Both the position numbers and the translations under genes were made by a program. This document shows positions 6,927 to 9,914 of a stretch of DNA of 33,415 nucleotides, one piece after another (position 1 is the first letter of the stretch; each line of letters begins with the position of its first letter). Origin of the DNA: Gluconacetobacter johannae (GTDB taxonomy: Bacteria; Pseudomonadota; Alphaproteobacteria; Acetobacterales; Acetobacteraceae). The notes under the pieces are model-generated. The model was given only the letters and a program-made list of their open reading frames with translations, was not told the origin of the DNA and searched no databases. The stretch lies in assembly GCF_014174305.1 (NCBI RefSeq), contig NZ_JABEQH010000030.1, positions 1-33,415 of the forward strand. The letters run 5' to 3'.

Positions 6927-7385
6927 TCAGCCCGGCCGACCCGCCCGGTGATAAGGGTGGCCGGTTGCAATCGCCCTGGCACGATAGAGCTGTTCGGCCA
7001 GCAATCCCCGCACCAGCATATGCGGCCATGTCATCGGCCCCAGCGACAAGGTGTCGTCGGCACGGCTCAGCACCGGTCCGTCCAGCCCCTCGGCCCCGCC
7101 GATCAGGAAACAGAGCGGCCGCGACAGGCCAAGCCAGCGTTCCACGCGCTGGGCGAACGCCAGGCTGTCATGGCTGTGGCCCCCTTCGTCCATCGCCACG
7201 ACAAAGGCCCGGTCCGGCAGGGCCGCCAGCAGGGACTGACCTTCGCGCCGCTTGACCTCGGCCACCGCCCCCCGCCCTTCGGGCACCTCCACCAGGTCCA
7301 GACGCGGCGTCAGCCGCTCGGCATAGCGACGAAAGAGGTCGCGCTCGGCCCCATCCTTCATCCGCCCGACGGCAATCAGGCGCAT
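6927..7385 (-). CDS. rlmH: 23S rRNA (pseudouridine1915-N3)-methyltransferase RlmH
   Basis: This 152-residue SPOUT-class methyltransferase methylates N3 of pseudouridine 1915 in helix 69 of 23S rRNA in assembled 70S ribosomes, using SAM. The start [10 protein letters not shown], the SAM-binding knot FLIGGAEG (93-100) and the C-terminal [23 protein letters not shown] / GHPYHR block are all diagnostic, and the length is typical. ATG 7385 gives the canonical N-terminus; an upstream in-frame GTG (7403) would add six residues. It lies 64 nt downstream of rsfS on the same strand, the common rsfS-rlmH order of alphaproteobacteria, and is probably the last gene of the proA-nadD-rsfS-rlmH unit. Confidence 0.96.
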
Positions 7386-7449
7386 GGAGGCCTCGACGCA
7401 CAAGAAGACCGCGTCGGATCGCCGGCAACATACGTTGGCAAGCGGTCTC

Positions 7450-8004
7450 TCAGACCGTGCCGTCCGGCTCGCCGACCGGCAGGACGTCCAGATCCGCGCC
7501 CCACATCCGCTCCAGCCCGTACAGGGCGCGGGCCTCGGCCTTGAACAGATGCACGACGATATCGCCGGCGTCGATCAGCACCCAGTCCGACCCGTTCGCG
7601 CCTTCGATCAGCACACGCTTCAGCCCGGCCTCGCCCAGCTTGCGTTCGATATGCGTCGCCATCGCCGCGATCTGGCGATCGGCCACGCCGGTGGCGACCA
7701 CCATCCGGTCGGCGAACGCGGCGCGGCCGGTCAGGTCCAGCACCACGATGTCCTCACCCTTATCGTCGGCCAGGCTTTCGGTGATGATGGCCAGGTACTT
7801 GTCCAGCAGGGCGGTTTCGACGGGTTCGCGACGAACCGCCTTGCCGGGGCCGGCGACGGCCGCCTTCTTGCGCGGGGTGCCCGGCGCCTTCGCCGTGCCG
7901 GCAACCGTGCTGGCGGCAGCGGCGCGGCTGCCGGTCGTGGCTGACGTTTTCTTGGGTGCCGTGCGACGAGTGGTCCCCGTATCGGCCGGAGGCTTCCTGG
8001 CGAT
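7450..8004 (-). CDS. rsfS: Ribosomal silencing factor RsfS, without a standard start codon
   Basis: RsfS binds L14 on the 50S subunit and blocks subunit joining in starvation. The domain (from [11 protein letters not shown] to the end, about 120 residues) shows the family core [39 protein letters not shown] and YGLERMWG. It is preceded by a basic Ala/Lys/Thr-rich tail. I find no ATG, GTG or TTG in this frame between the end of the NadD domain and the RsfS core. A good Shine-Dalgarno GCAGGAG (8013-8019) precedes, with 8 nt spacing, an ATC codon at 8002-8004, exactly where an ATG would be expected (it would read [10 protein letters not shown]). RsfS may thus start at ATC, may be translated only as part of the NadD fusion, or the base may be a sequence error. 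The domain call is certain, the start is not. Confidence 0.6.
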
Positions 8005-8631
8005 GACTGTAACTCCTGCGGCAGGGTGATAAGGTGCGTTCGACGCACGTAATGCCGTTGCTGATATACCGGTCTGGGGGGCCGGAAGAAAGGCCCAAGC
8101 GCAGGGCGCGCGCGACGCAAGAATCGGGGCCTCGCGCGCCGGGCGGCGCCAGCGCGCCAGCGCCACCGCCGCCGGCCCGCGCAACGCCGCCGGGTTATAG
8201 GGCGGGCGGGGCAGAACCGCGAACGGCGCCAGCGAAACGATCCGCCGCCAGCGCCGCCAATGCGGCAGTTGGGCCAGCCCGTCCGCCCCCATCAGCCAGA
8301 CGAATTCCGCGCGGGGAAAGCGCCGGCGCAACCGCGCCAGCGTATCGACGGTATAGCGGGTGCCGATTCGCCGTTCGATGTCGGTGGCGATGATGCGCCG
8401 CCCGTCGGCACAGGCCGCGACCGCCGCCAGCCGTTCGTCGAACGGGGCCATGCCCAGCGCCGGCTTCAGCGGATTGCCCGGCGACACCATCAGCCAGACC
8501 TGGTCCAGCCGCAATTGCCGCAGGGCCCGCCGGGCGAGTTGCAGATGGCCGGCATGGACGGGATTGAACGACCCGCCCAACAGGCCGATCCGCACCCGCC
8601 GCCCGTCGCCCCACGCGGGAATCGACGCCAT
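7450..8631 (-). CDS. nadD: NadD nicotinate-nucleotide adenylyltransferase, in frame with RsfS
   Basis: One open frame of 393 residues. Residues 1 to about 197 are NadD, which makes nicotinic acid adenine dinucleotide from NaMN and ATP in NAD synthesis. The nucleotidyltransferase signature [15 protein letters not shown] (16-30) holds the HxGH motif. [14 protein letters not shown] lies at 112-125, and ISATALR (189-195) matches the usual C-terminal ISSTxIR. NadD would normally stop soon after. Here the frame continues through a Thr/Ala/Lys/Arg-rich stretch (about 211-270) into a complete RsfS domain (272-393) with no stop codon. ATG 8631 lies 2 nt after the proA stop, so the genes are coupled. 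The product is either a natural NadD-RsfS fusion or NadD with a long tail plus separately initiated RsfS. Confidence 0.82.
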
Positions 8632-8633
8632 GG

Positions 8634-9914
8634 TCAGGGACGCTGCTGCCCCGTCCCGATGACTTCGTACCGAAAGGTGGTCAGTTGCTCCAGCCCCACC
8701 GGGCCACGGGCATGGAAGCGGCCGGTGGCGATGCCGATTTCGGCGCCGAAACCGAATTCGCCCCCATCGCAGAACTGCGTCGAGGCATTCCACATCACCA
8801 CGGCGCTGTCCGTGCCGTTCAGGAACTGCGCGGCGATCTCCGCGTCCTCGGTCACGATCGCCTCGGTATGGGCGCTGCCATAGCGGGCGATGTGCGCCAG
8901 CGCGTCCTCGACCCCGTCCACCACGGCGATCGACAGGATCGCATCCAGCCATTCGGTGCCGAAATCGGCCTCGGTCGCCACAGGCAGGTCGGGCAGGATG
9001 GCGCGGGCGCGCCCATCGGCGCGGAAGGCGCAGCCGCGCGCGGCAAGGTCCGCCACGATGTCGGGCAGCAGGGCGGGCGCGACGGCGGCGTCGATCAGCA
9101 GCGTTTCGGTCGCGCCGCAGATGCCGGTGCGCCGCATCTTGGCATTGGCCACCAGCCCCCGGGCCATCGCCGGATCGGCCGCCGCGTGGACGTAGGTGTG
9201 GCACAGCCCCTCGGCATGCGCCAGCACGGGCACCCGGGCCTCGCGCTGCACCCGTTCGACCAACGACTTGCCGCCACGCGGAATAATCAGGTCGATCAGC
9301 CCCGACGCCGTCAGCATGTCCGCCACATGCCGGCGGTCGGTATCGGGCGCGATCTGCACCGCCGCCTCGGGCAGGCCGGCGGCGCGCAGGCCCGCCGCCA
9401 TCGCCGCATGGATCGCCCGCGCGCTGTGCAGGCTTTCCGACCCGCCGCGCAAAATCACCGCGTTGCCCGACTTGATGCACAGGCCCGCCGCGTCGGCGCC
9501 GACATTGGGGCGGCTTTCATAGATCATGCCGATGACGCCCACCGGCGTCGCCACGCGGCGGAACAGCAACCCGTTGGGCCGCGTCCATTCCGCCATGATC
9601 CGCCCGACCGGATCGGGCAGGCCCGCCACGTCCTCCAGCCCCCGGGCCATCGCCTCCACCCGCGCCGGGGTCAGGGTCAGCCGGTCGCGAAAGGACGCCG
9701 TGGCGGTCGAGGCCGCAAGATCGCGCGCATTCGCCGCCAGGATCTCATCCTGCCGTTCCCGCAGGGCAGCCGCCGCATGACGCAGGGCGGCATCGCGCGT
9801 CCCGGACGAACTCCGCGCCAGAAGCCGGGCGGCGGCACGGGCCCGCGCCGCCAGCTCCGGCATGGCCGGGACCCACTGGCCCTCTGCTTCCATGACGGAC
9901 GTGACTGCGTTCAT
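8634..9914 (-). CDS. proA: Gamma-glutamyl phosphate reductase ProA
   Basis: This 426-residue cytoplasmic enzyme is the second step of proline synthesis: NADPH-dependent reduction of gamma-glutamyl phosphate to glutamate-5-semialdehyde. It shows the aldehyde-dehydrogenase-like fold signatures VATPVGVIGMIYESRPNV (121-138), SGNAVILRGGSE (149-160), and the catalytic cysteine Cys266 in TGICGATE. Length is typical. ATG 9914 was chosen because AGGGAGG lies 6 nt upstream; an in-frame extension to 9995 lacks family similarity. The proB partner is not in the window, but proC is at 20207. The gene heads the proA-nadD-rsfS-rlmH cluster. Confidence 0.96.
   Translation of the reverse strand: MNAVTSVMEAEGQWVPAMPELAARARAAARLLARSSSGTRDAALRHAAAALRERQDEILAANARDLAASTATASFRDRLTLTPARVEAMARGLEDVAGLPDPVGRIMAEWTRPNGLLFRRVATPVGVIGMIYESRPNVGADAAGLCIKSGNAVILRGGSESLHSARAIHAAMAAGLRAAGLPEAAVQIAPDTDRRHVADMLTASGLIDLIIPRGGKSLVERVQREARVPVLAHAEGLCHTYVHAAADPAMARGLVANAKMRRTGICGATETLLIDAAVAPALLPDIVADLAARGCAFRADGRARAILPDLPVATEADFGTEWLDAILSIAVVDGVEDALAHIARYGSAHTEAIVTEDAEIAAQFLNGTDSAVVMWNASTQFCDGGEFGFGAEIGIATGRFHARGPVGLEQLTTFRYEVIGTGQQRP

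Follow-up and report, generated by a model that had tools for sequence, protein, structure and literature searches.

A conserved AUC or AUA codon behind a Shine-Dalgarno sequence is the probable start of rsfS in Acetobacteraceae and may parallel the start of infC

The window analyzed here is the whole 33,415-nucleotide stretch of contig NZ_JABEQH010000030.1 from Gluconacetobacter johannae. Its minus strand carries the gene row proA, nadD, rsfS, and rlmH. A single open frame on this strand, read from 8634 to 7450 and closed by a TGA at 7452-7450, spans NadD, a linker, and RsfS, and it contains the following features.

8005 to 8631, minus strand: nadD, nicotinate-nucleotide adenylyltransferase, beginning with an ATG at 8631-8629; it lacks a stop codon of its own and its frame runs on into rsfS
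8047 to 8067, minus strand: ISATALR, the C-terminal motif of NadD, read from NadD as ...GISATALR
8005 to 8046, minus strand: in-frame linker between NadD and RsfS, 14 codons
8013 to 8016, minus strand: GGAG within the Shine-Dalgarno sequence GCAGGAG, with an 8-nt spacer to the ATC
8002 to 8004, minus strand: ATC, the proposed start codon of rsfS
7450 to 8004, minus strand: rsfS, ribosome silencing factor, 184 codons plus TGA
7846 to 7884, minus strand: conserved 13-residue motif in the basic N-terminal extension of RsfS
7501 to 7785, minus strand: RsfS domain PF02410

Both domains were recognized when the joint frame was compared with Pfam (CTP_transf_like, E 1.1e-18; RsfS, E 6.1e-28). The downstream part belongs to the RsfS/YbeB/iojap family by its scores against PF02410 (97.4 bits, cut-off 21.6) and TIGR00090 (102.1 bits, cut-off 56.9), and the upstream part is a NadD by its score against NF000843 (278.9 bits, cut-off 240). 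A long basic N-terminal extension with the conserved 13-residue motif is found in RsfS proteins of the Acetobacteraceae, and several small genomes lack this motif. Folding of the junction RNA was not in excess of that of shuffled sequences (z +1.45), and a promoter scan of positions 7300-8700 found none.

An earlier sequence-only reading of this DNA, which did not state the strand, had noted that no stop codon separates the end of NadD from the RsfS core, that no ATG, GTG, or TTG lies in frame between them, and that a GCAGGAG precedes the ATC at 8002-8004. Our reading of the frame and a codon scan bore out each of these observations for the minus strand, where the GCAGGAG ends at 8013. The only start-like codons in the 110 codons preceding the RsfS core are CTG, ATT, ATA, and ATC. 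The same reading had offered two explanations, a NadD-RsfS fusion that links NAD synthesis to ribosome silencing or an rsfS gene that starts at ATC, and had proposed a comparison of nadD-rsfS junctions in related Acetobacteraceae.

For this comparison, 275 of 299 Acetobacteraceae genomes were matched, and part of these were examined together with 80 named loci; 190 loci were fetched, and the 171 with distinct junctions were kept. In each locus the start was picked as the best Shine-Dalgarno (SD)-paired codon in the RsfS frame, with seven codon types allowed and the isoleucine motif not used. The codons picked were ATC in 86 loci, ATA in 69, and ATT in 7 (162 of 171 together), with ATG in 1, GTG in 1, TTG in 2, and none in 5. 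The junction has two properties of an infC-kind start: an AUH or CUG codon lies in frame at SD distance (GGAG, 8 nt, ATC), and this codon is conserved while AUG is avoided, the sole ATG pick among the 171 being that of locus L098. The avoidance of ATG is readable only from these 171 junctions, since the set of 162 used below was selected for ATC, ATA, or ATT.

Within the genus, 14 of 14 genomes searched retain the ATC with its SD, namely the window genome and 13 relatives; the named members are Gluconacetobacter species and Nguyenibacter vanlangensis, and the complete G. diazotrophicus PA1 5 record (NC_011365, L201) also has ATC. The codon is one base from ATG, and a sequencing error for an ATG at 8004-8002 had been raised as a condition under which the anomaly would disappear. 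Because all 14 genomes carry ATC, and because ATC, ATA, or ATT is found in 162 of 171 family junctions, we regard such an error as refuted.

An SD-paired candidate was present in the RsfS frame of 166 of the 171 loci; in the two remaining frames the counts were 41 and 19 of 171. The choice of candidates favors SD-bearing places by construction, and the picker also reaches AUH codons in other genes. Alongside this other-frame control, the same picker was applied to family nadD (n = 168; none 114, ATT 21, CTG 9, ATG 8, TTG 6, GTG 5, ATA 3, ATC 2) and family rlmH (n = 140; none 79, CTG 25, ATG 22). These two genes do not give a clean control for SD-based choice, because many of their starts (114 of 168 and 79 of 140, respectively) have no SD and the picker then takes other codons.

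The codons picked in rsfS do not have the composition of ordinary isoleucine codons. Of the 162 ATC, ATA, or ATT picks, 69 are ATA, whereas in the body of RsfS from these loci only 6 of 1215 isoleucine codons are (Fisher p 2e-63). Compared with isoleucine codons of the nadD frame, of which 159 of 878 are ATA, the contrast is weaker but holds (p 9e-11). In 41 of the 69 loci with ATA, the nadD stop overlaps the picked codon as ATAG or ATAA. On a protein tree of the 162 loci, the codon switched between ATC, ATA, and ATT at least 20 times. The protein sequence immediately after the start codon is conserved, mostly as I-A-R-K-P-P or I-T-R-x-P, and the arginine at codon 3 is encoded by AGA or AGG in 71 of 104 cases versus 66 of 2055 elsewhere in the gene.

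We also asked where a conventional start could lie. An in-frame stop is found within 10 codons upstream of the proposed start in 18 of the 162 loci, so fusion to nadD is ruled out in these. When canonical codons were counted over the whole frame, ATG, GTG, and TTG were absent upstream of the proposed start as far as the in-frame stop in 51 of 162 loci, from the stop through 20 codons past the AUH codon in 35, and from the stop to 12 codons before the domain anchor in 9. These last two counts bear on the proposal that translation of rsfS begins downstream, at a canonical codon, and that the ATC and its SD serve some other function. Many relatives do have GTG codons, about 42 or 19 codons before the anchor, from which such a protein could begin. 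Nevertheless, the 100 codons that precede the anchor contain no ATG, GTG, or TTG in the window genome or in a second genus genome (G009, L034), and a start downstream would remove the conserved 13-residue motif from the protein. We therefore consider a downstream start very improbable, slightly more so than the functional fusion discussed below.

A minority of loci do not follow the pattern. Nine of the 171 are misfits, with either no SD-paired candidate (L026, L036, L050, L055, and L056) or a canonical pick (L067, GTG; L097 and L103, TTG; L098, ATG); L026 is cut by a contig end, and the second choice in L097 is the expected ATC. In 25 loci, the proposed start has a canonical codon no more than 4 codons away. 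An ATG two codons upstream (L048, L076, L084, L114, L124, L250, and L256-L258) is too near the SD, and it could still conceivably be the start in those loci. An ATG 1-3 codons downstream (L049, L051, L061, and L062) may well be the true start. When the pattern GGAG-N5-9-ATH-GCC-AGR was searched in the window's own genome, 3 matches were obtained versus 2 in a reversed control, so the pattern alone is not diagnostic and yields no further genes; the third match, located inside another long reading frame, does not resemble a gene start.

Taken together, the family comparison strongly supports the proposal that the ATC in the window is a start codon and that this is a family-wide trait that is shared with other Alphaproteobacteria. 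From the sequence comparisons, we place the probability that rsfS starts at the AUC at 8004-8002 at about 0.85.

The frame shared by NadD and RsfS is itself real, and it is open through both domains in 13 of the 14 genus genomes. Outside the genus, a fused frame occurs in 4 loci among the 162: L085, L089, L205 (Acetobacter conturbans), and L251 (Acidomonas methanolica). L110, whose junction is similar to that of the fused L205, has a +1 overlap, and three further loci (L129, L144, and L157) have no nadD stop before rsfS. The fused state changed at least 5 times on the tree, and L085, L089, L205, and L251 each keep an AUH codon behind an SD.

If these frames encoded a functional fusion that couples NAD synthesis to ribosome silencing, the ATC would be an ordinary isoleucine codon of the linker. 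The open frame in 13 of 14 genus genomes, its recurrence in the four loci outside the genus, and a linker length difference of 27 bases that keeps the frame are what one would expect from such a protein. However, nadD is separate from rsfS in 145 of the 162 family loci, in which the AUH codon and SD are nonetheless present, and ATA in 69 of 162 would be hard to expect of an ordinary isoleucine codon. In addition, pN/pS in the linker was 0.82, compared with 0.27 in nadD and 0.47 at the beginning of rsfS, as calculated from the 11 of 13 fused loci that have the longer linker, of equal length in all (L001 and L034, with a shorter linker such as that in the window, were left out). Purifying selection on the linker as protein was thus not detected, although the 18 codons that give the value of 0.82 (1.26 and 1.01 in the shifted frames) are a short stretch in which weak selection is possible.

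The remaining genus genome, G012, provides a natural test of the fusion. Compared with near-identical G. diazotrophicus (L028 versus L027), it has a one-base deletion in the linker, and its nadD ends with a TAA directly after the GGAG. Conservation of the fusion therefore does not extend to all close relatives, yet G012 retains the ATC and SD even though its nadD and rsfS are separate. The same TAA is still present out of frame in 7 of the 13 fused genomes, and L070, L071, and L111, from other genera, end nadD at that TAA after GGAG. Because the TAA persists in this way and is used in these three loci, separate nadD and rsfS genes are probably the ancestral state.

Of the two explanations offered by the sequence-only reading, it is thus the ATC start that the family comparison favors; a fused frame exists, but with its near-neutral linker and the separate genes of G012 it gives no support to a selected coupling of NAD synthesis with ribosome silencing. 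The fusion has the appearance of a chance joining of frames that happened repeatedly, a local by-product that does not replace the rsfS start, and we judge a functional fusion with the ATC as a mere linker codon to be highly unlikely.

Ribosomes that translate nadD in this genus, meeting no stop, should also make some NadD-RsfS fusion protein of about 393 residues, which would then be present in the cell. This raises the alternative that two products matter, a fusion made by nadD ribosomes and a free RsfS made from the internal AUC, as in the two-product genes infB and clpB of E. coli. In 13 of the 14 genomes, any ribosome that completes nadD would necessarily produce the fusion, and the internal SD and ATC are found in all 14; the near-neutral linker and the separate genes of G012 argue against a selected role of the fused protein. 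We consider this alternative unlikely, though clearly less so than a fusion as the only functional product.

The preferred reading, initiation of rsfS at the AUC, has a counterpart in infC, the gene for IF3. In E. coli, the start codon of infC allows IF3 to control its own synthesis. An AUA start has been described for infC of Staphylococcus aureus in passages of PMC13009471. The infC start region of the window's own genome is GGAGCCGACCATAGCCAGA (G000:C7:65759-65777), and it reads CAGGAG-CCGACC-ATA-GCC-AGA-CCT-CCG. Among 30 Acetobacteraceae infC loci (L274-L303), of which 29 were parsed, the best SD-paired codon was ATA in 24, CTG in 4, and ATC in 1, and the family motif is AGGAG-N6-ATA-GCC-AGA. 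Many of these loci have an ATG about 5 codons later that lacks an SD (five have a weak GAGG).

In this family, infC and rsfS have in common the SD, the AUH codon, and often the GCC-AGR context. The rsfS junction resembles infC genes with AUU or AUA starts and IF3 autoregulation in that a conserved AUH codon stands behind a good SD, and the AUA-GCC-AGA context occurs in the same family. It differs in that rsfS uses AUC or AUA, often overlapping the upstream stop as AUAG or AUAA, and in that its product is RsfS and not IF3, so any control of rsfS by IF3 would act in trans and not as autoregulation.

To ask how far the rsfS start extends beyond the Acetobacteraceae, 82 loci (16 + 66) from other Alphaproteobacteria were analyzed, a part of those found (one search matched 145 genomes). 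The SD-based picks were ATA in 18, CTG in 18, ATC in 13, ATT in 5, ATG in 4, TTG in 3, GTG in 2, and none in 19. By a whole-frame count, ATG, GTG, and TTG are all missing in 17 of the 82 over the stretch that begins at the in-frame stop and ends 8 codons short of the anchor; among these 17, the SD-paired codon is ATA in 9, CTG in 3, ATC in 2, and ATT in 2, and L165 has no SD. In a further seven alphaproteobacterial loci, 3 of them from genomes already among the 82, CTG was picked in 6. A CTG behind an AAGGA-type SD is the best candidate in L130, L136, L176, L181, L316, L319, L326, and L328, some of which have AGGA only or AGGAGG. The evidence for CTG starts of rsfS in these bacteria is suggestive only, because several loci of this group have an ATG or GTG downstream.

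Outside the Alphaproteobacteria, 22 loci were examined from the 44 genomes so placed. The picks were ATG in 6, TTG in 2, ATC in 1, ATT in 1, and none in 12, and in 21 of the 22 loci an ATG, GTG, or TTG lies in frame 8 or more codons before the anchor. E. coli rsfS, which is annotated from TTG, resembles the gene in the window as a non-AUG start of the same gene, but UUG is one of the standard alternative starts, and IF3 does not discriminate against it as it does against AUH codons.

These observations suggest a mechanism by which the supply of IF3 could control ribosome silencing. According to PMC3400551, RsfS, which binds L14 on the 50S subunit, prevents the subunits from joining and reduces translation during stationary phase; according to PMC10158994, start codons with weak third-base pairs are excluded by IF3. 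In S. aureus, conserved AUA and AUU starts gave about 10% of the expression obtained with AUG, in poor medium (PMC13009471).

In the proposed mechanism, the GGAG 8 nt upstream would place the start of rsfS at the AUC, followed by the start-type context GCC AGR, and the first residue of RsfS would presumably be formylmethionine and not isoleucine. IF3 would destabilize initiation complexes with third-base mispairs, and such starts would serve well only when the cell has little free IF3 for its 30S subunits. Because IF3 excludes weak third-base pairs, a gene with an AUC or AUA start should be little translated when IF3 is plentiful and more when it is short.

Both IF3, on the 30S side, and RsfS, on the 50S side, hold the subunits apart. 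A shortage of free IF3 would thus raise the synthesis of IF3 and RsfS together and would tie silencing to the supply of IF3. By analogy with infC, we give roughly even odds to the idea that discrimination by IF3 is the reason the AUC start is kept. What the sequences show is the codon, its SD, their conservation, the absence of alternatives in part of the loci, and the likeness to infC; initiation at the AUC in the cell, its dependence on IF3, a physiological loop with a benefit to the cell, and the presence of the fusion protein are inferred. A wider proposal is that much of the Alphaproteobacteria keep rsfS on AUA, AUC, AUU, or CUG, that IF3 and RsfS are both made at rates set by how much free IF3 there is per 30S subunit, and that silencing is a trans arm of the infC loop; we offer it more tentatively, as an idea somewhat less likely to be right than wrong.

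To our knowledge, very few natural bacterial genes have a conserved AUH start, and the best known is infC, the textbook case of control by IF3. E. coli pcnB has an AUU start and is thus a natural AUH start like that of rsfS in an unrelated gene. The AUAG and AUAA junctions seen here resemble ATGA-type overlaps, in which the upstream stop overlaps the next start and translation is coupled, with the difference that AUA takes the place of AUG. The S. aureus genes ccpN (AUA) and cvfC1 (AUU) also combine a conserved weak start with an SD, and passages of PMC13009471 present these starts as thought to reduce and tune output and to be modulated by IF3; they are other genes in another phylum, for which profiling and reporter data are given there, whereas the present case is built from sequence.

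In the start-site mapping of Caulobacter, as given in passages of PMC4117421, 0.7% of starts were CTG, 0.25% were other near-cognate codons, and an SD preceded only 24.6% of starts; given so few near-cognate starts and SDs there, a conserved SD with an AUH codon is unusual. A term search found no rsfS in the main text of the Caulobacter (PMC4117421) and Zymomonas (PMC7566282) mapping papers. The titles and abstract openings among the matches listed contained no non-AUG start of rsfS, in a search that most subscription journals and supplements lay outside. A non-AUG start that IF3 discriminates against is of a known kind; its rsfS member, the conservation of that start throughout the family and in further families of the class, and its pairing with infC were not found among the matches listed.

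Because gene finders normally do not propose AUC or AUA as starts, rsfS may often be annotated in alphaproteobacterial genomes with a wrong start or as fused to nadD. If the proposed reading is true, rsfS would be a second translation factor gene with a start of the infC kind, with a matching function and in the same family, and it would join ribosome silencing to the supply of IF3.
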